Shown: positions 9,961 to 35,804 of the stretch, one piece after another
Numbering within the stretch: position 1 is the first letter of the stretch
Layout of the letters: each line of letters begins with the position of its first letter
Origin: Escallonia rubra
Lineage: Eukaryota > Streptophyta > Magnoliopsida > Escalloniales > Escalloniaceae
Assembly: GCA_033065855.1 (NCBI GenBank)
Contig: JAVXUO010001451.1
Location: 40,349 to 104,348, forward strand
Length of the DNA: 64,000 nt
Reading direction: 5' to 3'
Translations under genes and position numbers: made by a program
The notes under the pieces: generated by a model
Databases searched by the model: none
Told to the model about the DNA's origin: nothing
Seen by the model: only the letters and a program-made list of their open reading frames with translations

Positions 9961-10101
9961 AAAGGGGAAAATGCATTGCCCATGCTAAAGGTTGTTATGC
10001 TTATGCATATGCACTTTATGTTCCTTTGCAATGTTTCTGCTGCTTTCTGCACCATATATAGTTGCTGCAGTTGCATCAAAACTCGAACACTACCATTTGT
10101 C

Positions 10102-13105: not shown

Positions 13106-14338
13106 TGAATTCGGTGAAGAAAATGATAGTTATCCCTGACAGAAGAAAAAGGGGAAACATTGAGATACCAAATGTCAAGAAACCATCTAGTAATGAGACA
13201 CCGCATGATTAGAAACGTTAAGATGCTCCCGAGTTGGGGATTACAAAATCAAGGACAATGTAGAATCGTCAACGTAATTATGCAGACAAAAGGGATTTGC
13301 CGATTGAAAGTAAGGTTGCTAAGAAGAATCTCTTTGAGATTAGATAACTAAGTTGTTTCTGGTAGAAGTGCCACTGTACAGGTTTTGTAGTTCAATTTAA
13401 AGCACTCTTTTATATGACGATAAAGCATTAGGATCTCTAAATCCTAGATGGTTTTACAAGCTACCTAAATGCAGAGTAGTTAAAGAGGGTTAATGAACTT
13501 TTCAAATTCACCTACCTCAATAGTTTTATATAGGGAATACATGCTAGGGCTGTTCCATGGTTTAGATAATCACATACTTTGAATGAACTGTATTATATGC
13601 TAGGGCTAAGCAAGAAGAGTACTAGGATCTCAGGACACAATATCAAGTTATCAACAATCCATCATAGAAGTTATCCCCTCTACCCCGCCACCCAGGTTCC
13701 TTGTACTTATTCAGGAAGCTGTTAGATATCCTTATGTGGATTCATATTTTTCCCTAATCTCCCCTAATTAGATTTTGTTTGCAAAATTTTTGATGGTCCA
13801 GAATGGGACAAGCAGAATTAGTCAAAAGTTCAACTCTCTGATAGATTGCTTCAACCCACTCTTTCGACAACAGCAGGATCCTCTGCATATACCTCAATAA
13901 GCTAGTCCTGATCTGAAATGGATTTCACGTGATCATACATGTTTCTTGTTTCACAATCACTCCTTCTTTCATCTTCTTAGGAGTTATTACTTGCTTATAC
14001 CACTAATGATCTTTGACTTTTGATTATATTCTCTTCTCAAAACTTTGTACTAGTTAGGTGATATTACTATATATATATATTAATAAATTTCTAACACCTA
14101 GAAACCTACTTTATTTTATTATTGTTTGAAATAGTTTAAGAGTTCCACACCGAGGCTCAGATTGGTTAAGTGAGAAAGAAAGATGTCAGTAGAACCATGG
14201 GGAAAATACCGTCCTTTTCCTTATCCGATGAGCAGATCATTTCTAACATGTTTTTTGAATTTACTAACCTACGTACTAATAGAAAGTCTGATGATTACCT
14301 AGTTACTCGAAGAACTGTAGAGGACTAGATGATCGTAC
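13106..14338. other. Spacer between FDM pseudogene and P450 region, unit 1
   Basis: No gene seen. It is similar to 25475-26621 in unit 2, with many substitutions and small indels. Its 3' half (from GTTAGATATCC near 13722) is what follows the deletion joint in unit 3 (about 33705). It contains a short AT dinucleotide run near 14070 (TATATATATATA). Confidence 0.5.
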
Positions 14339-15720: not shown

Positions 15721-15772
15721 CGATGACAATCATTTAAATAGAGTTGTGGTCACCATCAAACCATTTGGTCCC

Positions 15773-15779
15773 TATAAAA
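15773..15779 (+). promoter_or_regulatory. TATA box of P450 copy 1
   Basis: TATAAAA in the context GGTCCCTATAAAAGTTGGTGC, conserved at 28056-28062 and 35751-35757 in front of the other P450 copies. In the intact unit-3 gene it lies about 50 bp before the start codon. Confidence 0.7.
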
Positions 15780-15780
15780 G

Positions 15781-16052
15781 TTGGTGCATCTTCCCTCCCT
15801 TCCGCTCGTTGTGCTTCTACTCTTCCTCTCAAAACCTCTGCACTCCATTTTCTGGGTTCCATGGAAAATCCAGCGACACTTCAGGAAACAAGGCGTAGTG
15901 GGGCCCAGCTACCGTCCCATTGTCGGGAACTCGGCGGAGATCAGCAACACTTCAAAACCTCTACGCATTTTTCTGTTTTAATATAATAGTTGTCTGTTTG
16001 ACTTTAACATGAACTACGTATTCGTCTCCAGAAGTTGATCGATTGCATTGCT
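15781..16052 (+). pseudogene. CYP72-clan P450 fragment, unit 1 (exon 1 with internal deletion)
   Basis: It encodes the membrane-anchor end of a cytochrome P450 exon 1 ([16 protein letters not shown], then [20 protein letters not shown]), homologous to 35805 onwards. The start codon region present in unit 3 (about 40 bp with ATG) is missing. At 15944, after GAGATCAG, the sequence jumps to intron 1 (CTACGCATTTTTCTG), removing the rest of exon 1 and most of the intron, about 0.9 kb relative to unit 2. Exons 2-4 were never included in this unit. It is non-functional as a P450. Confidence 0.88.
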
Positions 16053-16464
16053 ATCTAATCATTGCTTTTGAGAGGCAGCACCGCAGGAAGCTTTTGGGAA
16101 GAATATTAGACATCTAGTGAAACTCTTTGGCTTGCAAGTTGGTGGTCTAATCTAGCTTTTGTTTCATTTATGTATGTAATTTTGAAGGGTTAGCAGTTAG
16201 AAGTTACGAGGAAAAGGACTGTTAAGAAAGAAAATATATCCAAGATGAACACATATCCAAGAGGAATCAAAAAGAAAATGATGTCCCGTTTGAATGGAAC
16301 TTGAAGCATCAACACCACTTGTATCCCTTTCTTTTTCAAGAAAATTTGTTGAAATCTTTGATAAAATTTGAACAAAATCTTATTACAGATTTCTCTTTTA
16401 CAAAAAAAAAAAAAGGTCTAATAAATGTACAGTTATATTGAATTTAGTCACCAATTCATGTAGT

Positions 16465-17139
16465 TCATGTTAAACTCCAATAATCCAATTGTTGAATCAA
16501 TTGGGACCTGTAATAATTATTAGCAGAAAAAAAAGAAGTATTTCGAAAAACATTGCCTCTTTCATTTATGTAGTGGATTTCACCAAAGGAAAATGACTCA
16601 TTTAATAAATGATTACTTTTATAAAAAATATTTCTGTTTTTTCGAAATGTAATGACTAGAAGTGCTACTGATAATAATGATCCACATAGAAGAGCCGCAT
16701 AGCCCAATATCATCATACTTACGTGCATTATTAACCATTCGGATTGTAGAGCGGGTACTAATATTGTGGATTGATCTATTTCGGTTAAAAGACCCGAAGT
16801 CGCAAAGCCTTGGGTAAAAATAGCACTGGACGCCGTTATTGTGCTTAAATGATTTTGATTTTTTTTGAAATATGGAACTAGATGAATAATGGAGAAACTC
16901 CATGAAAGAAAGATTAATGATTCATATAAATCACTTAGTGGGAAATGCCCAGAATAAATCCAACGAGTGACTAATAATCCTGTTATACATAAAAAAGTAG
17001 CTATCATACCCTTTTCTGACGAATCATATAGTTTTATGATTTCATCAACTAATAAGGTTATCAAATGAATTGTAATTACAACTGAAACGATCGAAAAGGA
17101 AATATGAGTTAAAATATGCTCTAAAGTTGAAAATATCAT
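16465..17139 (-). pseudogene. ccsA: Plastid ccsA fragment (cytochrome c biogenesis protein), truncated
   Basis: The 224-codon frame starts [16 protein letters not shown] and follows plastid CcsA, a thylakoid membrane protein of c-type cytochrome heme attachment, through the hydrophobic segments and [13 protein letters not shown] up to [10 protein letters not shown]. After that it leaves the family and stops (LT then TGA), because plastid DNA ends at the insertion joint. Full-length CcsA is about 310-330 residues and carries the C-terminal WWD-type heme-handling motif (WGSYWNWDPKE) that is absent here. The fragment is open with no internal frameshift, which suggests recent transfer. It has no nuclear promoter or transit peptide, so function is unlikely. 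Confidence 0.95.
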
Positions 17140-17855
17140 AAAAAAAAAAAGGAATCCCTAAATTAGGAAATAGAAATCGGGAATTGAATTCATTATACGA
17201 TCTATTGTATCTCTTTTAGAAGATGACCTGGTCTGCCGCCACTCGGACTCGAACCGAGATGCTCTAGCACTGCTTCCTAAGAGCAGCGTGTCTACCGATT
17301 TCACCATAGCGGCTTGCTCGAACTCATAATAGCCTATTCATATTCAATCGTCGAGATTGGAGGAGTCAATTCAATCTAATATTTTTTAGGAAAAATGGAA
17401 ATTCATAAATAAAAATTTGTTCAAATAGGAATTTGAAGGTTCATTCTTTTTTTTCAGTTTTCTTTACCTTAGGGCTGCTTTGGTATATTTTATGCTCTCT
17501 CGGAATTGAACTCTTGTAACTAGACAGTTCTACCCTCTAGCTAGGGCTAGAACTAAAAAAAATGTTTTCATTTTTAATGAATTATTTTTGATTTATCCGA
17601 TTTCATAAATTTGAAACAAAAATGCATTTTTTAATAAACATAAAATAGACCCTATGTTGGGACTACTCAAAATTGACACATTATTTATTCGTACATAATA
17701 TATCAACTAAGGTTTTTTATCGGTTGGTTTGAAAGCGGGAGATATAGGGTAGATCCATACAGTAATTCAGAGAAATTAAGAAGTCAGAAAGTTATACAAA
17801 AAGTTTTAAAAATTGGATCAATTAGTTTCAATGACACGATAACTCCAATAATCCA
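16473..17855 (-). other. Nuclear insertion of plastid DNA (NUPT: ccsA 5' part, trnL-UAG, spacer)
   Basis: Reading the minus strand, a rpl32-trnL-type spacer, trnL-UAG and the first two thirds of ccsA follow in chloroplast order. Units 1 and 3 lack it. The insert is bracketed by AACTCCAATAATCCA at 16473-16487 and 17841-17855, and just outside by a 22-bp host repeat (ATTGAATTTAGTCACC...) at 16437-16458 and 17893-17914 that is single-copy in units 1 and 3. The inner repeat's left copy is genuine ccsA sequence, so its right copy looks like copied filler. Confidence 0.93.
17234..17313 (-). tRNA. trnL-UAG: Plastid-derived trnL-UAG in nuclear insertion
   Basis: An 80-nt class II tRNA reads on the minus strand: GCCGCTATGGTGAAAT at the 5' end, anticodon arm CTGCTC-TTAGGAA-GCAGTG (anticodon UAG), a long variable arm, T-arm CTCGG-TTCGAGT-CCGAG, and acceptor 3' side GGCGGC followed by A. 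Placement 5' of ccsA on the same strand is the usual chloroplast order. One D-arm position reads C where I would expect T from memory (AAATCGGTAGAC). Structurally it is complete, but as a plastid gene in nuclear DNA its expression is doubtful. Confidence 0.9.
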
Positions 17856-18051
17856 TTTCTTATCGTAGACTTGTTTGTTTGTTTTTTCCTTTATTGAATT
17901 TAGTCACCAATTCACATGACTCTAATCACTTTACGTTGAAAGTGTAAATCCAAATACCTGGCAAATTAATATAATACTTATATATCAAAAAAGAATCTTA
18001 AGTTATAAAATGAAACTAGAAAGTAAAAAGAAAAGCAAAAAGAGAAGTGGG

Positions 18052-18126
18052 TGCTCCCAACGAGAGTCGAGCTCGAGACCTCCCGCTTACTAAGGGGATG
18101 CTTCTAACCAACTGAGCTACGAGAGC
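18052..18126 (-). pseudogene. tRNA-Thr relic, unit 2
   Basis: Counterpart of 5823-5896. The acceptor stem no longer pairs (GCTCTCG against TTGGGAGC), the T-arm reads TCGAG-CTCGACT-CTCGT with mismatches and a changed TTC, the anticodon stem has lost a pair (CCCCT), and one extra base lies in the D-arm (TTAGAAGC). The AGT triplet is still present. Not expected to fold or be processed. Confidence 0.85.
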
Positions 18127-18580
18127 TTGGTGCCTTTTGTCTATTTTTAGTTAATTTAACTGCATTTGTTTTCTAATCCTACCCTAGCCACACGTGTCCG
18201 CCAAGGAACATGGTAGGATGCATAAACCTATGAAGCCCATGAACCGACTTGACTTTCAAAACACACGAGTACAATCAGTCTAAGCTATAAGCCTCTCTCT
18301 ACTCTCTATGTATCCAACACAACACCCACAGAGACAGAAAGTTCACAGCTTTATGGTCAGATCTCGTTTTCCATTTTATTTCTGAATTATTTACTGTTAT
18401 ATACTTATGGTTTCTCTTGAAAGTTATAAGTCCATGCCATTTCGTGCAGCTTTGGATTGATTTGGTTTGGCGTTTTTTTGTTGTTCTTTTCTGGGTTTTG
18501 CAGATTTAGGGTCTTGATATGCATATGGTATGTTTTTGAATAAGGGTTTTTGTGGGTTTATTGAATCTTTTGGAGAAAAA

Positions 18581-19405
18581 ATGTCGATTTTGTCCAACAG
18601 TGATTCGATTCACATAAGGGAAGTGTGGAATGATAATCTTGAACATGAGTTTGCGTTAATCCGCGAAATCGTTGATGACTTTCCGTTTATAGCGATGGAC
18701 ACTGAGTTCCCTGGCACTGTTCTTCGCCCTATAGGGACTTTCAAGAGCTCAACTGAGTATAATTTTCAGACCCTTAAGGCCAATGTTGACCTTCTGAAGT
18801 TAATACAAATGGGTCTTACTTTTTCTGATGAAGAAGGGAATCTTCCCACCTGTGGGACTGATAAGTACTGCGTCTGGCAGTTTAATTTCCGCGAGTTTAA
18901 TCTCAACGAGGATGTTTACGCGAATGACTCGATCGAGCTGTTAAGCCAGAGTGGCATTGATTTTAAAAAGAACTATGAAAAGGGCATTGATGCGCATCGG
19001 TTCCGCGAGCTACTGATGTCTTCTGGGATTGTGTTGAATGATAATGTGCACTGGGTCACCTTTGACGGTGGGTACGATTTTGGTTACTTGGTGAAGCTTT
19101 TGACTTGCCAGCATCTGCCCGATACGCAAGGGGGGTTCTTCAATTTGATCAACGTGTATTTCCCTACACTGTACGATATCAAGCATCTGATGAGATTCTG
19201 CAAGAGCCTTCGCGGTGGGTTGAACCAGCTTGCGGAGCTCCTGGGTGTTGAGAGGATTGGTATCCGCCATCAAGCTGGTTTGCGTAGTCTGCTTACTTGT
19301 CGTACATTCCTGAAGTTAAAGGAAAATTTCTTTAGTGGAACTCCTGAGAAGTATGCTGGTGTGTTGTATGGCCTTGTTGTTGAGAATGGACAAATTACTT
19401 ATTAA
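18581..19405 (+). CDS. CAF1: CAF1-family protein, copy 2, catalytic Asp replaced by Arg
   Basis: This intronless 274-codon frame is ~93% like copy 1. Start taken at ATG 18581 (MSILSN). An in-frame ATG at 18530 would add 17 residues ([17 protein letters not shown]), which copies 1 and 3 cannot do. D40, E42, D166 and H230 of the DEDDh nuclease are present. The last metal-binding Asp is lost: residue 235 is Arg ([10 protein letters not shown] against [10 protein letters not shown] in copy 1), and the HS before GYDFGYL is DG. In CAF1/CNOT7 enzymes that Asp is needed for activity, so I infer a catalytically weak or dead protein that may still bind CCR4-NOT. No AATAAA is seen at the position used by copies 1 and 3 (TATATAAAAA here). 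It lies downstream of the plastid insertion and tRNA relic. Confidence 0.88.
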
Positions 19406-21018
19406 GAAAAGAATATCGATGTCTTAAATTATATATAAAAATCTATTTGTTGGAGTACATGTGTGTTCAATGTTGTGATATCTTGTTTTCCTTCACTGTA
19501 ATTACTGTTTGTTCCTTATTTGAAGTCACACTGTGATTACTGTTTGTTCCTTATTTCAACTCACTTCCTCCCACCCCCACACACGTGCCCGCACCATTTA
19601 AGCTGAATTGTCTCTTCTTGTTGGAAATGCCAATGCTACTGACAAAGCAATCAGATTCCTGCTGTAGCATGATGTACAATGATACAAAGTAGTATTTGCT
19701 TTTGCGAAAGCCAATTCTGCCGACCAGTAGAATTTGCTGTCTAGAACTTCTTGTTGGAATCACATCTGGTATATAGTTTGTCTTGGATTGTGTTTATACT
19801 GCATTCACTGGACTTTACAACTATAGTATAATGCTCTTATGATTTCAATTGATCTGGTTTAGACTAAATAATGGCTTGCAAACGAGGCAGAATCTAATGA
19901 AAAGAAATTTTTTGTTTAGTAATCTTCTACTTCTGTTTGTTGACGAGCAAAGCAAAATCAAAACTTTGTCGCCGGCCTGAGATATTTCCTGTATGGATTA
20001 TTTACAATGTTGACCGGCTTCATGAAGGTTGACATACATGAAATAACTTCCTCATCCCTTCTTTCCTTGACACCGCAGTCATTAATCATCTTCTCATCCT
20101 GGCTTTGGGATTCGTTTTTGTTGTGGCATGACGTGTTTGATATTATATTGACCAAAGGAAAAAGACTCTTCCACAGTTGAAACTATCGTTAATTTTTGCT
20201 TCTTCTCGAAGGTATGCAATGGCCACTCCTTTGTGCCCCTACAGAATCATCTCAGTAATATTTTAGTAGATTCCTGTAGTTCTGTTTTCTTTTTTATTTG
20301 CTTAATTTGATGGTAAGGATAATTGCTGATATTATCTCAATTTGTCTGAACTTGCTTTCTGACTATTGCAATCTTTCTAAGGAGTATCAAGTGATGAGAT
20401 TCATTTTTCAATTTGTGTCTATTTAACGGCTCAAACTACTCTTTGACATGGTTAGTTGATTCTGAACCCACTTAAAATTTTGAAGTACTTTGTTTTTGCT
20501 TTTTTTTATGGGAAGTTCATGTATATCTAGATTGTAGTTTTATGTCCCCTTCCCCAAGCAGATTTGAAAAGTAATGAATTCCATACCTTTATATTGCATC
20601 TGCAAACCAAAACATCCATCAGAATTCTCTTCTTAGCTGTGAATAGTGGATAGAACTTCGAGTGCATGCACTATTAATATCTTCTGGCTGTTAGGAAACT
20701 GTATTGGACAATGTTGGATTCGGAGCTAAGCCTGTTCATCGAAGTGTAAGGATGAGTAACTCCGCTTACTGCCTTCAAAGCTTCTCAGGGAAATAAATTC
20801 ATGTTTAGAACATTTGATCTTAGTAACTTTCGTCCCTGCTGGAGAACTCTACGGAGTTGGCTGCGCCAAAGCCTACTGCTTATATATCTCATTTGTTTTG
20901 TAATTGGAAGACTTCTGTAACATCTAGTATGGCTTATCTTTTTTCTTAATTTTTTTACTGAATTGGACTTTTTTTGTTTATTATGTGTGTTATTACTATA
21001 TTACCTGTTGCTATCTAG
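19406..21018. other. Spacer 3' of CAF1-2, no gene recognised
   Basis: Matches 7405-9019 closely, with scattered substitutions, a ~40-bp gain near 20485-20515 and a small loss near 20190. No known motif or RNA gene. Confidence 0.5.
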
Positions 21019-21911
21019 TATGTTTATTCGATGCCAGCACTGGAGAAGGTTTTGGTATAAGAAGGGCATTGGAGAGATATCATATGGAACGGTTTGGCAT
21101 CCAAAGGGGAGGGCTGAATTAGATTCGGTTCTTGTTCTCATCAACCCAAAAAAGAAAGATGTTCAGGTGACGGCATTTCATTGTCTTTTTCATGTATCAT
21201 AGTTCAAGTTTTGAATGGTTGCGTTGCTAATCTTATTCACCCACCAGCTTCTCTTGGTCTACATAAGAAGGTGCATTTATTTGTCTTTTTTTATCGTTAT
21301 TTTGTGTGTCTGTGCCTGTGTGTGTGTTGGTGGTGGTGTGGGGGGGGGGGGAGGATATCATCTATTGACTCTTCACTCTTCTTACTGCATTTGTCACTTT
21401 GCCCCATAGAGCTCCCTCTCCCTCTCTCTCTCTGGCAGTTGTATCTATCAGGTCACGATACCATGTCCACTCACGAGCTTTATCATGCAGCTGCAACTTA
21501 GGTTGAGAAGCATTATCGTATAGGAAAAGCAAAATATAGAAATACATTGTTGGCTAAGGAATTCAGGGCCCAAGCTTCCTGAATCATTACCACGTAACAG
21601 CAACTAGAAAATTGTCATAAAGATTTAGGTCCTGCCCTCCGTCCCCATCACCTCCAGGAGAAAGGGTGGGGGAGAGAGAGAAAGATGCAGTAGGTGGTTT
21701 TTGATGCGTCCAGAGGCTCAATGCTCAAAACTTTTAATGGTTACGCAGTCTAGATGGTGCTTTTTGTTTGTATTTGTGATATACAAATAAAATTTTCTTG
21801 TTTATGCCAGATGTCTGCTATGTTGGAACTAGAAAAACTGGATGCATCAGTACAATAAAGAAGTGGCTCATCACGATGAAGCACTTGGAACACTTGTATA
21901 AATGGCTAGAG
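21019..21911 (+). pseudogene. Exon-like blocks of an unidentified gene (unit 2, better preserved)
   Basis: Block one (21019-21166) lies between CTATCTAG and CAG|GTGACG. It is open in one frame for its full 148 nt and reads WYKKGIGEISYGTVWHPKGR, then AELDSVLVLINPKKKDVQ, which has clear coding character. Block two (21811-21911) lies between TTTATGCCAG and GAG|GTAATG. It begins MSAMLELEKLDASVQ and then meets TAA. The same blocks in unit 1 (9020-9960) are more damaged. Between the blocks are a TG/G-rich simple repeat (about 21320-21352) and a CT run. I cannot assign a family, and no complete frame exists, so I call it a pseudogene fragment. Confidence 0.4.
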
Positions 21912-22138
21912 GTAATGCTGGAAAGTGGAAACAGATTTCATAAAGGGAAGGAGTTTCACCACTTGAAAGGGGAAAATGCATTGCCCATGCTAGAGTTTGT
22001 TATGCATATGCACTTTATGTTCCTTTGCAATGCTTCAGCTGCTTTCTGCACCATCTATAATTGCTGCAGTGGCATCAAATTCGAACACTACCATTTGTCT
22101 CAACACCTTCTACGCTTCCTTGATATCTTGTCCATAAC

Positions 22139-25100
22139 TTAAGCGATAACCGCCTTTAATGCGGCTTTCCTCTCCTTTTTGAAGTTCCACAGTTCAGGTA
22201 CAATGTATCTCCCACTAGGGTTGTAATCGTTCATCTCCTTCAGAGCTGTTGCTACCACTCTGTACACGTCCTTTCCCCATTTCTCCCTTAATGTTCTCAA
22301 CTTGTTCCCTTCATCTAATATTTCCTGCATACTGCAACATCACCCACTTGATTAATAACTTGTGCAAATCGTGCAGGTAATAAGTTCTCTTTGCCAATTT
22401 TTATGACTTGGAGCAACAGTTTGATTGAGCTTGATCATGGTCACTGTTCTTAAGACGAAGGTACCTATCTTTAAAGCTCAAGCAAGAATATGATTGGCAG
22501 TACGCAAAAGTATATGGTGGGATGACTGGTTTGAAACTCAAACACTTCCTGCCTGTCCCCGATGGAATTTAATCTATTGGTAAGATGGCCATAGTTTATG
22601 CCATATTGTTTGTAGCCAGTAACTCAGGCAGAGTTTCATAACAAATTTAAGCCTAAAGGTTATGTTATGGGTTTGGTCAGAAACTTTGGTCAAAGAAGTG
22701 TAAAAAGTCAGGATAATGGAATTTCAGGTAACCTTGACTGCAAGAACTAGAAATAGAGTAGAGATAGGATACATGCCTCATTGCCTTTCCCTTCAGTTTC
22801 GAGGATTTTGAATGGATGGCATCCAGGATCCTGAATATACTCTTGCCATTTGGAGCATAACAAGGCTGCCTTCTCCATTGCCGTGCGATTTAGATATCTT
22901 CTTTTGCGTTCCTGTTGAAATGGTCTTAAACTAAGGTCTCCATTCTCTTGATTCCAATAGTCGTGCAACCACTTAACAGCTTCGTCAAACCCTAATAGGC
23001 AAATGTAAGCCACTTCATGGACATTTGAGTATGAGATCTCGCATAATTGTAGAAACTGCACGGGTTTCATCATAAACGTGTAAATATTACACAATTGTCT
23101 GTGCATATTAAATTTCTTTGGTATTGACTACAATCTCCGGCAGTGAATGGTAATTGTGACATAAAAGAAACGAAGAAGACAATCGTACCTTAACCATTTT
23201 CTGGTAGGGTGCTTGTAACCTGTGTTACATGGACCTAACCTGTGTTACATGGACTCTTCAAAATGCATAAAGTACCCGTGTCGGATACTCGACACTTGGA
23301 CATGGGTATGGGATATGTGTCCGACATATCCTAAATGATATGCCACTAAGAACACTATATTATAGTGTTTATTTTAGTTTGTTATTACTTTAAGATGATC
23401 TGAGTTTAAGTTAAAGCGAAATGCGTAAATTAAAACACAGTGTCGACTAAGGAATAAGTAAAATACAAGAATAGATAGGAATATTATGCCGTGTCCCCGT
23501 GTCTTTGATTTTGAGAAATAGACGAATCCGACACTTGGACACGTATTCGACTCGGGACACCCGTACCGAGTCCATGTAACATAGCTTGTAACTGGTCATT
23601 CATTTCATGCTCTTTCACAACGAGGCCTAGACTCAGCTCCTCTTTGTCCTTCAACTCTTCCTCAAATTCCATCTTCTTCTGAACACTTGGATCACTTCCT
23701 TTTGCTAGATGCTCTAGCACCTTCAATTGCCTTCTCACCAACTGCAGCTGCTGTGCTGCATCTAACTCTTTCTCTAATGCAAGTATCTTTTACGAAGCTG
23801 CCTTTTTTTTGTCTCTCTCTATCTCTTGAACAGTAAAATTAATTAATGGGAAGGGCTTTACATTAGTTTGTGCAGAAATAAAATTTCAAAGAGATGATGA
23901 GGCCTGGCTTGAAATTGCCATACCTGTTGCTCTTCAAGCAGCGTCAAGACATTATCGTTGGCTTTTAGTTGCTTCTTTGATCCAAATGGAATGATTCATC
24001 TTTCTGGTATCCGTTGGAGAAAGGATGGCATTAGCACAAGCATCTTCACTCTTCGCCAATATAACTTCTAATGGTATAATTTCAGTCGGCCTTCATTCAG
24101 TTGAAATCAAGATTTACCTCTCTCTTCTCGTCCTCAATTATTCTCCTTTCAAGTTGGGTTAAGGTGACAGTTGTTTTGACCATTTGTCAAAAAGTTCTCT
24201 CTTTGATTCCAATTCAAACTTCATTTAATCGCTTTCCTCCAAAATCCTACGAGCGCGTTCCTGCGTCACATGCTGCATCCTTTCCATTTCTGACAAATAA
24301 CTTAGATACTTGTTAATCATTATTACCTTTGTGTATCAGATAAGCTGATTGGCCTGCAAGCGTATGAAACCGTGAACCTCGTTGTAAGCTTCTAGTCTTA
24401 TCCCTTGCTGTCGCTATTAACATGAAATTACAAGTTTCTATTTCTTCTTGTGGAGATTAAAAAAAGGACGGTTCATTTGTCTGGTTCTGAGAAAGTAGAT
24501 AGGCCTTGTCTTGTTATAATGACTGACATGATTATGCAGCAAACCTGCAACTTTTGTTATAAACAAACCTACAACTTCAGTTACTCGTAAAGGTGCTAAC
24601 CTTCGTTGTAAGCCAGGTACATCTTGTCATTCTCTTCAAGCATCCTACTTAGAGACGTGCTTTTCTCATGGCACTGTGCTGCAAGTCATTTATGTTTTCA
24701 TCTATGACATCTAGTTTGTCAGCTAGATCAGCAACCACAGTGTTCCTTTACTTTGTGGTTTTCTCGTGATGCTAGATGTTGTTTCGAGTTATGCTTTCTC
24801 AAAAAGATAATTTGCAATTGGCACTTCAGAGTGATAGTCGTCTGTCTGCTTGTGCACACCATCCATAGATATCTAAACCAGGGTGCCTTCTCCGTGCATC
24901 CCAACTACATTGGCTTCGAAATCTTTCTAAAGATCCATAACATTATTGAATCCCTACCGATCTTCACTGAAGTGCAATATAGCATACCCTGCAAAGCCTT
25001 TTTCAGTCGACAATACCTGGACATCTAGTGGTTTATACTCGCAGAATTTTCTCAGCCATGTTGTGTTTTCTTTGTGTTTCTTCTTTCCCTTTGGCCTTGT

Positions 25101-25474
25101 CCTAATATTGGCAATGTTACCTTTCCAAGGCGAAACAAACAGTTCATCATGCCTCGCATGTTTAATGATATTTTCCTGATCAAGAGTGCAATGTATGGCA
25201 TCTATTTGGGTTAGGTCTTTTTCCAAGTACTTTGCCAAGGCTAGATGGTCTCCCTGCCACTCCTATTGGATGAACCTATACCTACTCCAGAGGCACGCTG
25301 TTGAAGCTCACCATAATGGTACTCTTCTTTCCTCTTTCCTGGGCAAAAATGACTTTTAAAGGTGCCGTTTGGATTCTTGATTTTGTATTTTCCAGCTCTT
25401 AGGTGTCTGTAGGGATTCTGTTTATAATGATTAATCTCAGATTCACTTATATCTGACTCTTCTGCACTGCCCAT
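22139..25474 (-). pseudogene. FDM/IDN2-like XS-XH protein pseudogene (unit 2)
   Basis: Second decayed FACTOR OF DNA METHYLATION gene of the array, longer-lived than the unit-1 copy. Visible: N-terminus at ATG 25474 (MGSAEESDISESEINHY); zf-XS segment with the first Cys changed to Ser (FKSHFCPGKR); after a frameshift near 25240, ALAKYLEKDL and XS-domain sequence (GFAGYAILHF, TDDYHSE); coiled-coil exons (SEMERMQHVTQERARRILEE near 24250; KQLKANDNVLTLLEEQQ ending in a GTATGG donor near 23930); then the XH domain in two open exons, 22800-22960 (KWQEYIQDPGCHPFKI) and 22139-22330 (EYNPSGRY-like NDYNPSGRYIVPELWNF). The donor after GKGNE is GC rather than GT, and a 365-bp element interrupts the coiled-coil exon. 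Function is probably lost, although the XH exons remain open. Confidence 0.87.
23219..23583. mobile_element. MITE-like TIR element inside FDM pseudogene 2
   Basis: A 365-bp insertion absent from unit 1, flanked by GCTTGTAA at 23211-23218 and 23584-23591 (8-bp target duplication, fitting hAT). Ends are inverted: TGTTACATGGAC on the left and GTCCATGTAACA on the right; the left end is tandemly doubled (CCTGTGTTACATGGAC twice). Internal subterminal motifs CGACACTTGGAC and CCGTGTC recur near both ends. No coding capacity. It post-dates the duplication of the array unit. Confidence 0.85.
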
Positions 25475-26621
25475 TGAATTTGGTGAAGAAAATGACAGTT
25501 ATTCCTGACGGAAGAAAAAAGAGTAATCGTGAGATACCCAATGTTTAGAAACCATGTAGTAATGAGACGCCGCATGATTAGAAACGTTAAGATGCTCCCG
25601 AGTTGGGCGATTACAAAATCAAGGACAATGTAATTATGCAGATAAAAGAGATTTACTGATCGAAAGTATGGTTGCTAAGAAGAATCTCTTTGAGATTAAA
25701 TAACCAAGTTGTTTCTGGTAGAAGTGCGGTCTAAATCCTACATGGTTTTACAAGCTACCTAAATGCAGAGTAGATAAAGAGAGTTATTGAACTTCTTAAA
25801 TCACCTACCTCAAGAGGTTTTATATAGGGAATACAGGCTAGGGCTGTTCCACGGTTTAGATAATTACATACTTTGGATGAACTGTATAATATGCTAGGGC
25901 TAAGCAAGAAGAGTACTAGTATCTCAGGACACAATATCAACAATCCATCATAGAAGTTATCCCCTCTACCCCGTCACCCAGGTTCCTTGTATTTATTCTG
26001 GAAGCTGTTAGATATCCTTATGTGGATTCATTTCCTTCCCTAATCTCCCCTAATTAGATTTTGTTTGCAAAAGGTTTTGATGGTCCAAAACGGGACAAGC
26101 AGAATTACTTAAAAGTTCAACTCTCCATCTGATAGATTGCTTCAACCCACTCTTTCGGCAACAGTAGGATCCTCTATTATGCATATACCTCAATAAGCTA
26201 GTCCTGATCTGACATGGATTTCACGTGATCATACATGTTTCTTGGTTCACAATCACTCCTTCCTCCATCTTCGTAGGAGTTCTTAATTGCTTATACCACT
26301 AATGATCTTTGATTTTTTTATTATATTGTCTCTTCTCAAAAAATTTGTACTACTTTGGTGATATTACTGCGTGTAGTAATACCCTTCTGACTCCTAGAAG
26401 CCTAGTTTATTTCATTATTGTTTGAAATAGTTTAAGAGTTGCACCGAGGCTCAGATTGGTTAAGTGAAAAAGGAGGATGTCAGTAGAACCATTGGAGAAA
26501 ATACTCGTCCTTTACCTTATCCGATAGCAGGTCATTTCTGACATTTTCTATGTGCATACTAACAGAAGGTTTGACGATTACCTAGTCACTTGAAGAACTG
26601 TAGAGGACTGAATGGTCATAC
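25475..26621. other. Spacer between FDM pseudogene 2 and the identical tract
   Basis: Counterpart of 13106-14338 with frequent substitutions and indels. No gene, RNA or transposon end recognised. Confidence 0.5.
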
Positions 26622-28003
26622 ATCGAAGAATGATGCTGCTCCCGAGCCTCGCTGAACTTTTGCATGAAGAAGCACAACCGCCAGTAACGGTATTGTATTG
26701 CCAAAGGTTCACAGCTTTATGTACAGGCAAGATCAGTGTACCAAAATCCAACAAAATGTCGATGTTTAGATCAAGATGAATTACAGGGAGATTGGAGCAC
26801 ACTAGAAATTCATACATTTAACCAACTAGAATCAAGAAATAAGTGGAAAGAAGAGGTAAATGAAATCAAAATGTGTGCAAGTTCATTGTAGTTTTCATTG
26901 TAGAATCAAGATGAATTACATGGAAATTGTAGCACACTAGAAATTCATACATTTAACCAACTAGAATCAAGAAATAAGAGGGTCAGTTTACTGTATTTAA
27001 TGTTTACTTTGTGGACTTAATTGTACAGCTTGTTATTAGCATAATCTTTATGTGATCATTTACTAGCTGATACGTTTTTAACAATTATGGTAACTTGCAT
27101 AAGACATTCATGCTTGCCTTGATGGATTGCTCAATTTGCTAGAGATACGTTAAGAGTCCAGCTCTTTTTTGTTAAAAGCTTCTGATCTGATATAGACGTC
27201 GGCAGGACTGAGCCGTGTCGCCCATTGTAAAAGTATTTCAGGGCATGCTTAGGAAGAAAGGGGCATATCAAGAAAATAGAACTGCTGGTATGAGTTGTAA
27301 GGAATACCAGTAGGCCGCAGGATACTTTCAGTCTCCACATGTTAATGGAACTCGATAAATAGCATTTACCATGCACAAATCATCGGTGAATAATTGCTGT
27401 TATTTATTTTACTTTTTACCATTGAAAGGGTGCTAGTGAATGTGTTATATCGCGTATGAATGATCTGGAAAGGGATGTTTGCTGGAATTACAGATAAAGA
27501 AACCTTTACTGTTGAACTTAAAATGTTTATCATCATGGTGCATCATTAGTTAATTGAATTATATGACGAGATGTGATGGTCTTCAGAGACAGCTGAACCA
27601 GACGATTGCTTTGAACCTCTTAACTTTTTGTCATGAACTGCCATTTCCTGTTAACTCTCTTTCAGCACAAGAGTTTATGGGCTTGCACTACTGGCATAGA
27701 AACGATATGTGTTGCTGGAGTATTGGAGATGGAAAATGCCGTGATGTAGAGAATCCAAACAGTAAATTGCAGGCCGTTCGAGACCACATATGTTGTAATT
27801 GATGGATGGTTTCACGTCAAGCATGCCATAACATGGCCGAGACCTTGCGTCCATTGCAGTCTCTTCCCTCCAGCAAGTCTTCCCTCGGTGTAATGACAGC
27901 TTTCTTTCCTTCCAAAAGTTTAACAGCATGTTTGCACCTTATTTTTTGAGATGTGCAAGGGAAAAAGGGATAGTGGATGATGTTTGCACCTTATTTTTTG
28001 ATA
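26622..28003. repeat. 1.38-kb tract apparently identical to 14339-15720
   Basis: Unit-2 partner of the identical tract. The first mismatch on the right is C (15721) against T (28004); on the left the flank AATGGTCATA differs from GATGATCGTA. Unit 3 carries the homologous region (34276-35700) at clearly lower identity with indels. Confidence 0.8.
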
Positions 28004-28055
28004 TGATGACAATCATTTAAATAGAGTTGTGGTCACCATCAAACCATTTGGTCCC

Positions 28056-28062
28056 TATAAAA
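28056..28062 (+). promoter_or_regulatory. TATA box of P450 copy 2
   Basis: TATAAAA, conserved with 15773-15779 and 35751-35757. Confidence 0.7.
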
Positions 28063-28063
28063 G

Positions 28064-28552
28064 TTGGTGCATCTTCCCTCCCTCCCGCCCGTTGTGCTTC
28101 AACTCTTCCTCTCAAAACCTCTGCACTCCATTTTCTGGGTTCCATGGAAAATCCAGCAACACTTCAGGAAACAAGGCGTAGTGGGGCCCAGCTACCGTCC
28201 CATTGTCGGGAACTCGGCGGAGATGAGACGGCTGACAAGCGAAGCCGAATCGAAGTCGAAACCGTTCAACCATGACAGTCTCCACCGTGTGGCGCCACAC
28301 TATCACGAGTGGGCTGAGATGTATGGGAAGACTTTCCTGTACTGGTTCGGGGTGAAACCGAGGCTAACTCTAGCGGATCCGGACTCGATCAAGGAAGTGC
28401 TTCCAAATAGTACGAGTGGCTCGTTTGATAAGCTTGGGTTTAACTCTTTGTCTGAGATGCTGTTCGGGCGGGGTCTTGCTGGGTTGAAGGGGAAGACGTG
28501 GGTTGTGCGCAGAAAGCTTGCAAGCCAGGCCTTTAACATGGAAGTAGTTAAG
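28064..28552 (+). pseudogene. CYP72-clan P450 exon 1 only, unit 2
   Basis: Exon 1 of the P450 is open from the membrane-anchor end to its splice donor (AGTTAAG|GTGATT at 28552/28553) and includes [26 protein letters not shown] and [14 protein letters not shown]. The initiator segment found in unit 3 (TTACAATGTATTTTCTCATG region) is deleted, leaving no ATG before the anchor. Intron 1 sequence follows to 29229 and then fuses to unit 3, so exons 2-4 with the I-helix, ExxR and heme loop are missing. It could at most yield a non-catalytic fragment. Exon-1 amino acids differ from the intact gene at about a dozen positions. Confidence 0.9.
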
Positions 28553-29738
28553 GTGATTTTCTCTCTTTAAGTCTTATACAGAAGATTGTCCTCGCTTGCT
28601 TTTCTTTTCTTTTCTTTTCAGCTCACAAATGGAGCGCAGATGTGATAGTCAGAGGGTGGTTTAATCCGAGCCTTCATGTACACTTTTTTTGCGTCTTGAA
28701 CTGTTGCAAATTGGTGGTATTTCAAAGCCAAAGGTGGACTCTCACGCGCGCACGTGAGCCCGGCTTAGGCCCAGGCCATTCCGAGGCAAATTTTAGAAAT
28801 TCAGCGAAAAATTAGTTAGCCAGACGCGTCATGTGTTACTCGCACGCAATGGGGTGCAAATCCCAGCACAAAAGCCCTCGCGGGCCTACCTGATGATGGC
28901 ATTCTTTTTGCGGTTTTCGTTGACCATAACTGTCGAAATCATATTCTCTCTAGTTATCCAATTATAAATGCAAGCAGAAGGGTGTTCGTGTGGCCCTCCT
29001 TATTCGAGTACTCCTTAGCGGAGAAGAAACTTTCGACTCCTGGAGGGTAACCGTTCGAGATCTTGGGCACCGAGATGTTATCTCTGTCAGGCGAAACTAC
29101 TCTTTAAGGGCAGCGGTCAAGCTGTCGATAGTTTTACTACGCATTTTTCTATTTTAATATAATAGTTGTTCGTTTGACTTTAACATGAACCACGTATTCG
29201 TACCCATAAAGTTGATCGATTGCATTGCTATCTAATCATTGCTTTTGACAGGCAGCACCGCAGCAAGCTTTTGGGAAGAATATTAGACATCTAGTGAAAC
29301 TCTCTGGCTTGCAAGTTGGTGGTCTAATCTAGCTCTTGCTTCATTTCTTTCTGTAATTCCAAGGGTTAGCAGTTAGATTGTCCCTTAAAATTGGATGGTC
29401 TCAACCATTCTTTCTCAAAAGGAGCCAAATGATAGAAGTTACGAGGAAAAGGACTGATCAGACAAATGGCTTTGAAAGTTTTTGGCAGTTTGGTATAGAA
29501 CTGTTCTCAATATCTTGAGTGTAATCTTCTTTCTCCCTTGGATGGAGATTACTGGAACATAGATATTCAAGAGAGGGGACCAGAACCAGAAAGAAAATGA
29601 TGTCGTTGAATGGAACTTGAAGCATCAATACCACTTGTATCCCTTTCTTTTTGAAGAAAATTTGTTGAAATCTTTGATAAAATTTGAACAAAATCTTATT
29701 ACAGATTTCTCTTTTACATAAATAAAAAAAAAGGTCTC

Positions 29739-29765
29739 ATAAATGTCACTGTACGTGACATTTAT
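29739..29765. repeat. Perfect 11-bp hairpin
   Basis: ATAAATGTCAC, 5-base loop TGTAC, then GTGACATTTAT. The unit-1 counterpart near 5628 has only ATGAATGTCACT without the second arm. Confidence 0.8.
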
Positions 29766-30030
29766 ATCCCTTGTTGTGGAGCTCAAATATTGAAAAGAGA
29801 GTTGAAATATCACTTGTAAAGAAGAAGTCACATTTCTTATCGTAGACTTATTCGTTTATTTTTTCCTTTATTGAATTTAGTCACCAATTCACATGACTCT
29901 AATCATTTTATGTTGAAAATGTAAATCCAAATACCTGGCAAATTAATATAATACTTATCTATCAAAAAAAATATATCTTAAGTTATAAAATGAAATTAGA
30001 AGGTAAAAGAAAAGCAAAAATAAAAATGGG

Positions 30031-30105
30031 TGTTCTCGACGAGAGTCGAGCTCGAGACCTCCCGCTTATTGAAGGGGTGCTTCTAACCAACTGAACTACA
30101 AGAGC
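30031..30105 (-). pseudogene. tRNA-Thr relic, unit 3
   Basis: Counterpart of 5823-5896. The acceptor 5' side is GCTCTTG, the D-arm reads TAGTTCAGTTGGTTAGAAGC, and the anticodon loop is altered to TTCAATAA, so the AGT anticodon is lost. The T-arm also has mismatches. Clearly non-functional. Confidence 0.85.
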
Positions 30106-30194
30106 TTTGCGCCTTTTATCTATTTTTATTTAATTTAATTGCATTTGTTTTCTAATCCTACCCTAACCACGCGTGTCTGCCAATAAACATGGTA

Positions 30195-31798
30195 GTAGAT
30201 GTGAGCATTTAAACCGTAAAAATCGAACTGACAACCAATCCGACAAATTTCAAACCAATCGCAAAAACAATTGGTTTATTTATTTTTTTTACAAACCGCA
30301 TGTCCGGTTTGGTTTGATTTTTTTAAAACCGAACTGACCGTATACAATATAATATATAATTTTTTTTAAACTAACCCCAGTTAGTTTTAACTGAATTAGG
30401 TAGTTAAACTTAACCCTTCATATAAAATATCGGTAACCCTAAATCCTAATCCATCTTTTCTTCAATCGCCGCCCACTCCCAGATCTGCTCCACAAGGACC
30501 ACAACCTCACACTCCACGCCTCATCTCATCCCTCAACTCTCAAGGCAGCACCTCCACCAAGGCAGCGTCTCCACCACGGCAGCGCCTTTTTCAGCGTCGT
30601 CTCTTCAGCCGCCGCCTTCTCCAGCGCCATCTCAACCTCCCACAGTTGCGCATCTGTATCTCCTCCTACCGTTGCCTCCTATTTCCTCTAGCCTCCAAGG
30701 TAATGTCTCCCCTTTTCTAGATTCCTCCTTTCTTAGCAGTTAGCTCCTCAGTTAAGCTTCCCCATTTCCCCTTCATCTTCTTCCCTGAATTATCAGAAAT
30801 TGTAGCATATTCATCCGTAGTACAGTGCTACTTTAGACTTTAGAGCCCCCAAAATGACGTGGGTGGGTGATGGGGGAGTTGGTCACTTGGTCAGGATCAA
30901 TTTTGGTGATTAACAAGAAAAATTGTCTCAGTTAAGATTAGTTTTCAATTAGTGCAAAAATGCAATTGCCCTGTACATTTATATATTAGTCATTGTTAAT
31001 ATAGACAGAAGTGATTGCAAGTAGTTGGGATGATTGTGCCTGAGAACTGCAGTAGAGCTAGGGCCACCCTTTTGAGAATGACAATGCAAATAAAATGTCA
31101 CAAACTCACAATTGCTTAAAGAGAGTACATATTCTGAAATCTTTGGTTTGAATCAGTACACTTGAAATGTCACAAACTCATAATTGGTTTGATTCAGTAT
31201 ACTTGATTTGAAGGAAATTCTCAATAACTAGTATCACATCAGATGGTTATGATGAATAATGTTTGTGAAAAAAGTAAGGAGATTTAATCTCACAAAATTT
31301 TTAGTAACCAGTATACTTGAAGTAGATTTAATGATTTCTTATCATTGTATTGTATTAGATGGTTGATGATGCGGGTGCAATAGGTGCTGATGGATAATAA
31401 TGTGTAATTTGATTAAAAGCTTAACAGATGCTATGTAAGGCGTTATTTTCTTTTGAATGTTATGTAATTTTCATTAGAATTTTAAGAAATGCTATGTAAT
31501 GATTTGTGTGTAATGAGTTATTTTCTTTGGATGTTATGTAATCTAATTAGAATTTTAGTCTTATGAGCAAAGATCTGCTGAATTACTTGAGTTTTGTTAC
31601 AAATTTTTAGTTGTTTTGGGCCCAGAATGGAATCTAGCCCAAACCGATTTAATCCGTTTAAACCGAACCGTTCGATCCATCTAATCCGTTCAAACCGAAC
31701 CGTTCAACTATAGTTCGGTTTATTTTTTTCCAAATCGATGTTGGTCGGTTCGGTTTGATATTCAACCTCCAAACCGAACCAACCGTGCTCACCCCTAC
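30195..31798. mobile_element. 1.6-kb non-autonomous TIR element (hAT-like) upstream of CAF1-3
   Basis: Left end GTAGATGTGAGCA and right end TGCTCACCCCTAC form imperfect 13-bp inverted repeats. Next to both ends are AAACCGAACC / GGTTTGGTTTG motif clusters, a common layout of plant hAT-like elements starting with AGGGGTGAGCA. The interior holds a short exon-like, CT/CC-rich block (30470-30700) ending in AAG|GTAATG, perhaps a captured 5' leader. No transposase. No target duplication is seen because host sequence next to it is missing relative to units 1 and 2. Confidence 0.7.
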
Positions 31799-32136
31799 AA
31801 TCTAATCTCTATATATCCAACACAACGCAACGTGAGCTCTGAACAGGCCTAAAAATACACCCAATTTTTTACAGTTTTTGAATCGGAGACACAGAAGTTC
31901 ACGGCTTTATAGTCAGATCTCATTTTCCATTTTATTTCTGAATTATTTACTGTTATATACTTATGGTTTCTCTTGGAAGTTATAAGTTCATGCCATTTCT
32001 TGCAGCTTTGGATTGATTTGGTTTGGCGTTTTTTTGTTGTTTTCTTTTCTGGGTTTTGCAGATTTAGGGTCTTGATATGCATATGGTATGTTTTTGAATA
32101 GGGGTTTTTGTGGGTTTATTGAATCTTTTGGAGAAA

Positions 32137-32964
32137 ATGTCGATTTTGTCCAAGACTAGTGATTCGATTCACATAAGGGAAGTGTGGAATGACAATCTTG
32201 AAGATGAGTTTGGGTTAATTCGCCATATTGTTGATGACTATACCTTTATAGCTATGGACACCGAGTTTCCTGGCATTGTCCTTCGCCCTACAGGGACTTT
32301 CAAGAGCTCAGCTGAGTATAACTTTCAGACCCTTAAGGCCAATGTCGACCTTCTGAAGTTAATACAAGTGGGTCTTACTTTTTCTGATGAAGAAGGGAAT
32401 CTTCCCACCTGTGGGACTGATAAGTACTGTGTCTGGCAGTTTAATTTCCGCGAGTTTAATCTCAATGAGGATCGTTACGCGAATGACTCGATTGAGCTGT
32501 TAAGCCAGAGTGGCATTGATTTTAAAAAGAACTATGAAAAGGGCATTGATGCGCATCGGTTCCGCGAGCTACTGATGTCTTCTGGGATTGTGTTGAATGA
32601 TAATGTGCACTGGGTCACCTTTGACGGTGGGTACGATTTTGGTTACTTGGTGAAGCTTTTGACTTGCCAGCATCTGCCCGATACGCAAGGGGGGTTCTTC
32701 AATTTGATCAACATGTATTTCCCTACACTGTACGATATCAAGCATCTGATGAAATTCTGCAATTGCCTTCGCGGTGGGTTGAACCAGCTTGCGGAGCTCC
32801 TGGGTGTTGAGAGGATTGGTATCTGCCATCAAGCTGGTTCGCGTAGTCTGCTTACTTCTTGTACATTCCTGAAGTTAAAGGAAAATTTCTTTAGTGGAAC
32901 TCCTGAGAAGTATGCTGGTGTGTTGTATGGCCTTGGTGTTGAGAATGGACAAATTACTTATTAA
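32137..32964 (+). CDS. CAF1: CAF1-family protein, copy 3, catalytic Asp replaced by Arg
   Basis: This 275-codon intronless frame starts [11 protein letters not shown], with one extra Thr-type residue against copies 1 and 2. D41, E43, D167 and H231 are present, but the final DEDDh Asp is Arg236 ([10 protein letters not shown]), and DGGYDFGYL replaces HSGYDFGYL, as in copy 2. The N-terminal half has its own changes ([27 protein letters not shown]). Poly(A) deadenylation activity is therefore doubtful, although the CCR4-NOT docking fold may persist. AATAAA follows at 32993. An upstream ATG (near 32088) opens a frame overlapping the start out of phase. The upstream region is altered by the 30195-31798 transposon. 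Confidence 0.88.
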
Positions 32965-35750
32965 GAAAAGAATATCGATGTCTTAAATTATAAATAAAAA
33001 TCTATTTGTTGGAGTACATGTGTGTTCAATGCTGTGATATCTTCTTTTCCTTCACTGTAATTACTTTTGTTCCTTAATTGAACTCACACTGTGATTATTG
33101 TTTGTTCCTTATTTCAACTCCTCAACCACCCCCTTCCCCCCGCCCCGGGGCACCCACCACCCACACCACTGAAGCTCTCTTCTTGTTGGAAAGGCCAATG
33201 CTACTGCCAAAGCAATCAAATTCCTGCTGTAGCATGATATACAATGATACAGAGCAGTATTTGCTTTTGCAGAAGCCAACAATGCCGGCCTGTAGAATTT
33301 GCCGTCTAAAACTCGCGGTTGGAATCACATATGGTATATATTTTGGCTTTGTTTGTCTTGATATTGCGTTCACTGGACCTTACAAATATAGTATAATGCT
33401 CTTATCATGTCATTTGATCTGGTTTAGACTAAATATGTGCTTACGAGCGAGGCAGAATCTAATAAAAGGAAAAATTTATTTAATAATTTTCTACTTCTGT
33501 TCGTTGTTGAGCAAAGGAAAATCAAAAGTCGTTGCCAACCTGAGATATTTCCTATATGGATCATTTACAATGTTGATCGACTTCGTGAAATCGATGCACG
33601 TGAAATAGCTTCCTCGTTCGTTCTTTACTTGACACGGCAGTCATTAATCATCTTTTCCTCCTGGCTTGGGATTTGTTTTTCTTATGGCATCACGCATTTG
33701 AGATTGTTAGATATCCTTATGCGGATTCATATTTTTCCCTAATCTCCCTTAATTAGTTTTTGTTTGCAAAATTACTCTCCATCTAATAGATTGCTTCAAC
33801 CCACTCTTTCAACAACAGCAGCATCCTCTATTATGCTAATACCTCAATAAGCTAGTCCTGATCTGAAATGGATTAAAAAAACGTGATCATACATGTTTCT
33901 TGGTTCACAATCACTCCTTCCTTCATCTTCTTAGGAGTTATTACTTGCTTATACCACTAATGATCTTTGACTTTTGATTATATTGTCTCTTCTCTAACTT
34001 TGTACTATTTAGGTGATATTACTCTATATATATTAATAAATATCTAAAACCTAGAAGCCTAGTTTATTTTATTATTGTTTGAAATAGTTTAAGAGTTCCA
34101 CCGAGGCTCAGATTGCTTGAGTGAGAAACCATTGGAGAAAAAACCGTCCTTCTCCTTATCCGATGAGCAGCAGATCATTTCTAACATGTTTTATGAATTT
34201 ACTAACCTACGTACTAACAGAAGGTTTGATGATTACCTAGTTACTCGAAGAACTGTAGAGGACTAGATGGTCGTACATCGAAGAATGATACTGCTCCCGA
34301 GCCTCACTGAACTTTTGCACGAAGAAGCACAACCACCAGTAACGGTATTGTATTGCCCAAGGTTCACAGCTTTATGTACAGGAAAGAGCAGTGTTCCGAA
34401 ATCCAACAAAATGTCGATGTTTAGATCAAGATGAATTACATGGAGATTGGAGCACACTAGAAATTCATACATTTAACCAACTAGAATCAAGAAATAATTG
34501 GAAAGAAGAGGTAAATGGAATCAAGAAATTCATACATTTAGCCAACAAAATGTGTGCAAGTTCATTGTAGTTTTCTACACTTGGTCGTCTCCTTGTGTCG
34601 ATGTTTAGATCAAGATGAATTACATGGAAATTATAGCACACTAGAAATTCATACATTTAACCAACTAGAATCAAGAAATAAGAGGGTTAGTTTACTGTAT
34701 TTAGTGTTTACTTTGTGGACTTAATTGTACAGCTTGTTATTAGCATGATCTTTATGTGATCATTTACTAGCTGATATGTTTTTAACAATTATGGTAACGT
34801 GCATAAGACATTCATGCTTGCCTTGATGGATTGCTCAATTTGCTAGATATGTGTTAAGAGTCCATCTCTTTTTGTTAAAAGCTTCTGATCTGATATAGAC
34901 GTCGGCAGGACTGAGCCGTGTTACCCTTTGTAAAAGTAGGTGTTTCAGGGCATGCTTAGGAAGAAAGGGTCATATCAAGAAAATAGAACTGCTGGTATGA
35001 GTCGTATGGAATACCAGTAGGCCGCTGGATACTTTCAGTCTCCACATGTTAATGGAACTCGATAAATAGCATTTACCATGCACAAATCAACTGTGAATAA
35101 TTGCTGTTATTTATTTTACTTTTTACCATTGAAAGGGTGCTAGTGAATGAGTTATATCACGTATGAATAATCTGGAAATGGATGTTTGTTGTAGTTACAG
35201 ATAAAGAAACCTTTACTGCTGAACTTAAAATGTTTGTCCTCATGTTGCATCATTAGTTAATTAAATTATGATGAGCTGTGATGGTCTTCAGAGACAGCTG
35301 AACCAGACGATTGCTTCGAACCTCGAACTTTTTGCTATGAACTGCCATTTCCAGTAACTCGCTCTCTCTCAGCTCAAGAGTCTGTGTTTGCACTGGCATA
35401 GAAACGATATGTCTCACAGGGGTACTGGAGATGGAAAAAGCCATGATCGAGTATCCAAACAGTAGATTGCAGACCATATGATCCATAAAGTTGTACAGAT
35501 AAATGGTTTCACGTCAAGCATGGCATAACTTGGCCGAAACCTTGTATCAATTGCAGTCTCTTCCCTCTAGCAAATCTTACTTGTGTTTGTGTGGACTGAG
35601 CCAGGCCTGCAGAATAGGTTGAAGCTATTTGCACCTTATTTTTCTGAGATGCGCAGGACAAAAGGGACAGTGGACGATGTTTGCACCTTATTATTTATAT
35701 GATGACAATCATTTAAATAGAGTTTTGGTCACCATCAACCATTTGGTCCC
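32965..35750. other. Spacer CAF1-3 to P450, no gene
   Basis: Homologous to the CAF1 3' spacer (to about 33700) and then, after a deletion joint, to the spacer upstream of the P450. It contains direct repeats of TTCATACATTTAACCAACTAG-type sequence (three at 34460-34670, against two in units 1 and 2). The plus frame of 176 codons at 33078-33608 is an unsupported chance frame across the spacer. Confidence 0.55.
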
Positions 35751-35757
35751 TATAAAA
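35751..35757 (+). promoter_or_regulatory. TATA box of the intact P450 gene
   Basis: TATAAAA, 48 bp before the ATG at 35805, with a CT-rich leader between. Conserved in the two truncated copies. Confidence 0.8.
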
Positions 35758-35804
35758 GTTGGTGCATCTTCCCTCCCTCCCACCCTCACTCTTCTGACTT
35801 TACA

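Follow-up and report, generated by a model that had tools for sequence, protein, structure and literature searches.

Two of three tandem CAF1 copies in Escallonia rubra are probably decaying duplicates that share a single loss of a catalytic aspartate

A stretch of 64,000 nucleotides from Escallonia rubra (assembly GCA_033065855.1, contig JAVXUO010001451.1, positions 40,349 to 104,348 of the forward strand; hereafter the window) holds three copies of a gene for the deadenylase CAF1, two of which lack the final aspartate of the DEDDh catalytic set and keep open reading frames. Are these two copies pseudo-deadenylases maintained by selection, or genes on their way to becoming pseudogenes? With a probability of roughly 0.75, we favor the second answer: copies 2 and 3 are young tandem duplicates in decay, and one lesion came to be shared between them by exchange. 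The three genes, in window coordinates, are as follows.

6580 to 7404, plus strand: CAF1 copy 1, 274 amino acids from MSILS; PF04857 E=1e-21
18581 to 19405, plus strand: CAF1 copy 2, 274 amino acids; PF04857 E=2.6e-20; in-frame upstream ATG at 18530
32137 to 32964, plus strand: CAF1 copy 3, 275 amino acids; PF04857 E=9.7e-22; one inserted codon near the N terminus

All three copies score above the Pfam cut-off for PF04857, the CAF1 ribonuclease domain, and CNOT7 (chain 4gmj_B, CCR4-NOT) is matched by copy 1 with phmmer E=6.2e-92 and by copy 3 with E=8.1e-89. The DEDDh set is complete in copy 1 (H162 at 7063-7065, D235 at 7282-7284) and incomplete in copies 2 and 3, in which the last Asp has been replaced by Arg and D, E, D and H are retained. 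Re-translation reproduced the motif residues that had been read originally, i.e., motif III as HQAGSDSLL in copy 1, HQAGLRSLL in copy 2 and HQAGSRSLL in copy 3, and motif II as HSGYD in copy 1 and DGGYD in copies 2 and 3, which also keep the catalytic Asp of GYD, the DTE of motif I and the His of HQAG. In copy 2 the altered residues are Arg at codon 235 (19283-19285), Asp-Gly at codons 162-163 (19064-19069) and Arg at codon 142 (19004-19006, the position of CNOT7 A137); in copy 3 they are Arg at codon 236 (32842-32844), Asp-Gly at codons 163-164 (32623-32628) and Arg at codon 143 (32563-32565). The last Asp is encoded by GAT in copy 1; the Arg codon in its place in copies 2 and 3, CGT, differs from it at two bases, and the motif II codons CAC AGT of copy 1 are GAC GGT in those copies. 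Domain, length and most motifs are shared with CAF1/CNOT7-type deadenylases, from which copies 2 and 3 differ by the missing last Asp, the missing motif II His and Ser, and the Arg at the A137 position. An AlphaFold2 model of copy 3 (8 sequences) reached a mean predicted local distance difference test score of only 46.9 and was discarded.

The altered residues are derived in copies 2 and 3, because the other complete CAF1 genes translated from the genome, which we take to be plant-type, keep all or most of the ancestral ones. Searches of the genome (566 Mb), window copies included, gave 20 matches with the Pfam family, 49 with the copy 1 protein and 11 with the copy 2 DNA. Six complete distinct genes were translated (L012, L014, L015, L016, L018 and L019), leaving out L013, fragments that contain stops (L017 and L024 among them) or are carried by repeats, and the matches on C927 and C2598, which are split. 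L013 and L012, on contigs C2216 and C2215, give identical CAF1 matches with equal scores, and the pair is probably redundant assembly. HQAGSD and the motif II His are retained in all six genes and the following Ser in four, and loss of the last Asp does not appear to be a habit of the CAF1 family in this genome. At the 121 columns (of 265 compared) that are invariant in four paralogues, copies 2 and 3 depart eight times each and copy 1 four times, with H162, S163 and D235 among the extra departures.

The two losses are not independent. The original prediction that two copies had lost the Asp is right in that both carry Arg, yet the Arg codon belongs to a block common to copies 2 and 3 (d23 = 0.020), and they have it for this reason by shared descent. 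The block is best seen in copy 2:

18970 to 19463, plus strand: approximate tract in which copy 2 matches copy 3 instead of copy 1; covers the 3' half of the coding sequence and the start of the 3' flank, with D>R, H>D and S>G

Twenty sites in the 5' half of the coding sequence group copies 1 and 2 against copy 3, and two group copies 2 and 3 against copy 1; in the 3' half the corresponding counts are 3 and 19 (Fisher p 3.6e-7; none of 20000 permutations of the 44 sites reached the observed maximum chi-square). The 5' flank, where copy 2 has a second copy-3-like tract, behaves like the 3' half (18 sites group copies 2 and 3, 6 group copies 1 and 2). The 3' flank shows the opposite pattern: from 7462 on, and counting a C-rich stretch that aligns poorly, 9 sites group copies 2 and 3 and 87 group copies 1 and 2. 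The distances between copies 1 and 2, 1 and 3, and 2 and 3 (d12/d13/d23) follow the same course, with 0.085/0.097/0.036 in the 5' flank, 0.021/0.060/0.068 in the 5' half, 0.056/0.050/0.020 in the 3' half and 0.047/0.147/0.165 in the 3' flank from 7462. Between copies 2 and 3 this amounts to 98% identity over the 444 columns of the 3' half and to differences at 16.5% of the 659 columns of the 3' flank, the poorly aligned C-rich stretch again included.

The genes lie in a tandem array, contained in a single contig (C1242), of units of about 11-12 kb, the third being shorter.

5112 to 16428, plus strand: tandem unit 1, with tRNA-Thr, CAF1 copy 1 and a block matching the P450 side of units 2 and 3
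17854 to 29746, plus strand: tandem unit 2, with tRNA-Thr, CAF1 copy 2 and a partial P450 frame at 28061-28567
29831 to 36918, plus strand: tandem unit 3, with CAF1 copy 3, then P450 pieces continuing to 38467

Units 1 and 2 show zero base differences in 1250 compared columns of the P450-side block (14373-15636), directly after blocks that are 10% apart, a sign of recent conversion or exchange. Taken with the site patterns, this marks the array as a mosaic from conversion or exchange, in which the Asp loss is one event seen twice. Two more specific scenarios were dropped. Copy 2 was first suspected to be the recipient on account of the even d13 across the coding sequence, but the two halves have unequal synonymous d13 (0.20 and 0.078) and unit distances vary along the array, so that in the transfer between copies 2 and 3 either may have been the donor. 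There was likewise no sign that copy 1 had been converted from an L012-type paralogue, as its 3' half dS (synonymous divergence) to L012 is 2.4 against 1.9 and 2.0 for the other copies, values that are saturated and make this a weak test.

Selection was assessed with a custom-written codon model of five sequences (copies 1-3, L012 and L014) with one tree per segment; synonymous sites to the outgroups are saturated, so that the assignment of changes to branches is rough. In the 3' half the background omega, i.e., the ratio of nonsynonymous to synonymous rates (dN/dS), was 0.055, and a separate omega for copy 2, copy 3 and their shared branch raised the log-likelihood (lnL) over that of a single omega by 19.85 (2dlnL, twice the difference, = 39.7). 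The estimate for these branches went to its upper bound, with fixation at omega = 1 costing 2dlnL = 4.4; for the copy 1 branch alone omega was 0.118 and the same fixation cost 5.2. The private changes of copies 2 and 3 in this half comprise nine replacements and no synonymous change (9 N : 0 S), a count with a probability of 2.3e-7 at omega 0.06, 0.0032 at 0.3, 0.021 at 0.5 and 0.12 at 1. Over the whole coding sequence the unpolarised private sites of copy 2, which has the outgroup residue at codon 29, number 10 N : 1 S when codon 25 (different in all three copies) is excluded, with P = 3.9e-7, 0.0098, 0.062 and 0.29 at the same four values. Small as the numbers are, both counts fit neutrality and not omega 0.06 or 0.3. 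The degenerate 3' half of copies 2 and 3 is under no detectable purifying selection, and copy 1 is constrained there. The suggestion that these copies are selected or at least tolerated keeps its second part, as they are tolerated open-frame copies without the metal-ligand Asp; selection is not supported by an omega of 1 or above and 9 N : 0 S in the 3' half. The dN/dS comparison proposed with it gives values near 1 in the 3' half only, while the pairwise values of the whole coding sequence are 0.31-0.67.

Several observations weigh against decay. None of the three frames contains a stop or a frameshift, which for copies 2 and 3 is not what a pseudogene leads one to expect, and the predicted open frames over 274-275 codons were found in all three. 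Neutral decay does not predict the excess over omega = 1 on the copy 2 and 3 branches of the 3' half, although two-base codon changes such as GAT>CGT and CTT>GTG can produce omega above 1. The derived changes shared by copies 2 and 3 (6 N : 2 S) are compatible with both omega 0.3 and omega 1 (P 0.19 and 0.77, respectively). In the 5' half omega was 0.67 on the branches of copies 1 and 2 and 0.25 for copy 3, both indistinguishable from 1 (2dlnL 0.2 and 0.5, respectively), and constraint on copy 1 is for that reason not shown over its whole length. The Nei-Gojobori (NG86) ratios for the whole coding sequence are 0.31 for copies 1 and 3 (bootstrap 0.16-0.65), 0.42 for copies 2 and 3 (0.21-0.94, just below 1) and 0.67 for copies 1 and 2 (0.33-1.65), and the 5' half value for copies 1 and 3 is 0.18 (bootstrap 0.06-0.42); low values of this kind point to a period of constraint in the history of the genes. 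The scarcity of indels also suggests that the frame was protected for part of the time: the coding sequences of copies 1 and 2 differ by none and copy 3 has a single one, of 3 bp and in frame, against 3-8 per pair in the 3' flank. At the age of these copies, open frames are themselves weak evidence, since only 3.4% of random base changes in the coding sequence make a stop, and 20-30 changes would leave the frame free of stops with a probability of 0.50-0.35.

We hypothesize that a functional plant CAF1 gene became part of a tandem unit that is now present three times, and that in one unit lineage the constraint on CAF1 was lost. The relaxed gene would then have gathered replacements, including the final DEDDh Asp to Arg, the motif II His-Ser to Asp-Gly and an Arg in the NOT1-contact pocket, and two units would now have the damaged 3' half from a common ancestor, spread by gene conversion or by unequal exchange. 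The frames would have stayed open because the copies are young and their sequence was partly exchanged with copy 1. It is familiar for young tandem duplicates to undergo gene conversion and for some of them to decay, and the present copies resemble such duplicates in mosaicism, relaxed constraint, rearranged upstream regions and shared lesions. They differ in having no stop or frameshift yet.

The upstream regions of copies 2 and 3 have been rearranged at the following places.

6093 to 6329, plus strand: 237 bp upstream of copy 1, absent from copy 2, where 18329 and 18330 are neighbors
30212 to 31797, no strand assigned: dispersed repeat of about 1.6 kb, with matches on many contigs; the insertion lies immediately 5' of the TATA-like stretch of copy 3
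32088 to 32159, plus strand: reading frame that begins ahead of the copy 3 gene through a G>A change and overlaps the main ATG in a different frame

The repeat has at least 72 matches among those listed, the window's own included (40 of 1070 candidates were scored). The G>A change is common to copies 2 and 3 and creates an upstream ATG, which in copy 2 is in frame and lengthens the protein. Rearrangement of this kind may have reduced the expression of both copies.

The altered positions bear on both activity and NOT1 binding. According to PMC3510486, D230 of human CAF1, which corresponds to the lost Asp, directly contacts MgB together with E42 and D40, and the D40A/E42A mutant is reported as inactive in PMC8216464. 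Literature searches, with most subscription journals outside their coverage, gave no direct hit on an assay of a last-Asp (D230) mutant or on an inactive or pseudogene plant CAF1. Copies 2 and 3 have most likely lost all or nearly all catalytic activity, and copy 1 is likely the working gene. As to binding, PMC3510486 describes CNOT7 A137 as contacting the NOT1 knob P1257 in the human complex and M141 to Arg as abolishing NOT1 binding in human cells, while NOT1 P1257Y alone did not stop binding. In the phmmer alignment the A137 position is occupied by Arg in copies 2 and 3, which retain M141; in place of A137 copy 1 has Ser, and L012, L014, L015 and L016 have Gly or Ala. Of the 11 NOT1-contact positions named for CNOT7 in the same paper and mapped by hand, the residue of copy 1 recurs at 10 in copy 3 and at 9 in copy 2. 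The Arg may weaken NOT1 binding, and the competition for CCR4-NOT binding that was originally proposed becomes less likely with this residue at the position that in CNOT7 meets the P1257 knob.

Among the alternatives, that of a selected pseudo-deadenylase survives best, though we consider it improbable. Copies 2 and 3 would be made and would bind NOT1 or CCR4 without cutting, dampening deadenylation as dominant-negative decoys. Such a role would agree with the open frames, the strong CNOT7 match (E=8.1e-89 for copy 3), the largely conserved NOT1-contact positions and the slight replacement excess (2dlnL 4.4 over omega = 1), and overexpressed Drosophila POP2 that is catalytically dead or unable to bind NOT1 inhibits decay (PMC3510486). 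The lack of purifying selection in the 3' half, the Arg at the position of the NOT1 knob contact (even if P1257Y alone left binding intact) and the rearranged upstream regions speak against it. We set it aside as the principal explanation on the counts of replacement and synonymous changes and the maximum-likelihood fit, and the decoy idea finds little positive support here.

It is quite improbable that copies 2 and 3 are active nucleases with an altered active site, as in Saccharomyces cerevisiae Pop2, also a CAF1 protein with altered active-site residues (SEDQt for DEDDh; PMC8216464). They retain three acidic ligands and the His, and yeast Pop2 shows RNase activity despite its non-canonical site (PMC3870282 and PMC8216464). 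Against this, Arg in place of the residue that in human CAF1 contacts MgB (PMC3510486) would put a positive charge at the metal site, and the surrounding half of the protein shows no detected constraint. Moreover, Pop2 is given as the only CAF1 of its species in PMC3870282, whereas here intact paralogues are present and the altered half is unconstrained.

Very improbable, too, is a dead CAF1 that is unable to dock on NOT1, is kept in two copies by conversion and sequesters CCR4 or other partners in trans. Evolution would here have produced what the dominant-negative POP2 mutants of fly cells do by design and, if true, deadenylation would have a dominant-negative brake of natural origin. According to PMC3870282, the CCR4 homologues of plants are without the leucine-rich repeat domain that binds CAF1 elsewhere, which weighs against sequestering of CCR4.

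An assembly or sequencing artefact is hardly credible. The L012/L013 pair suggests some duplicated contigs in the assembly, but the three copies differ by 2-17% depending on the segment, each has its own flanks and repeats within one contig, and the Arg codon is present in two units. Finally, independent losses of the Asp in copies 2 and 3 have nothing in their favor beyond the end state itself, are almost inconceivable given the identical two-base codon change and 17 more sites of the 3' half where these copies agree against copy 1, and are contradicted by the common tract.

Other features of the window and the genome were noted in passing. The cytochrome P450 sequences on the plus strand consist of the partial frame at 28061-28567 in unit 2 and three pieces at 35721-38467, from unit 3 onwards, which together match 332 of 462 profile positions. 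Between units 1 and 2, at 16468-17313 on the minus strand, a ccsA-type frame (Cytochrom_C_asm) adjoins a tRNA-Leu(TAG), an insert that is presumably plastid-like in origin. A direct repeat (1-698 and 1214-1916) is 97.6% identical over 703 columns, its arms about 515 bp apart, and a gamma-glutamyltranspeptidase fragment (PF01019) lies at 61140-61574 on the minus strand. Elsewhere in the genome, locus L020 contains (at about 828-2203) a repeat of about 1.37 kb with terminal inverted repeats of about 47-50 bp (GGGATAATATCAC...), found at 90-95% identity in 16 other loci (L021-L023, L025-L036 and L038), nearly whole in 15 of them, with two pieces in L022, and partial in L038. It carries a CAF1 piece of about 280 bp, closest to L015 (88.6% over 281 bp), and its ends have a 9-bp A/T-rich direct repeat in 7 of the 17 loci, an 8-bp one in 2 and none in 8. 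It resembles a gene-capturing Mutator-type (Pack-MULE) element.

If copies 2 and 3 are indeed decaying duplicates with a shared lesion, the locus would be an ordinary but clear case of exchange within a tandem array spreading a disabling lesion, so that two inactive copies mimic two independent or selected losses. Open frames combined with missing catalytic residues would then be insufficient on their own for calling a pseudoenzyme.

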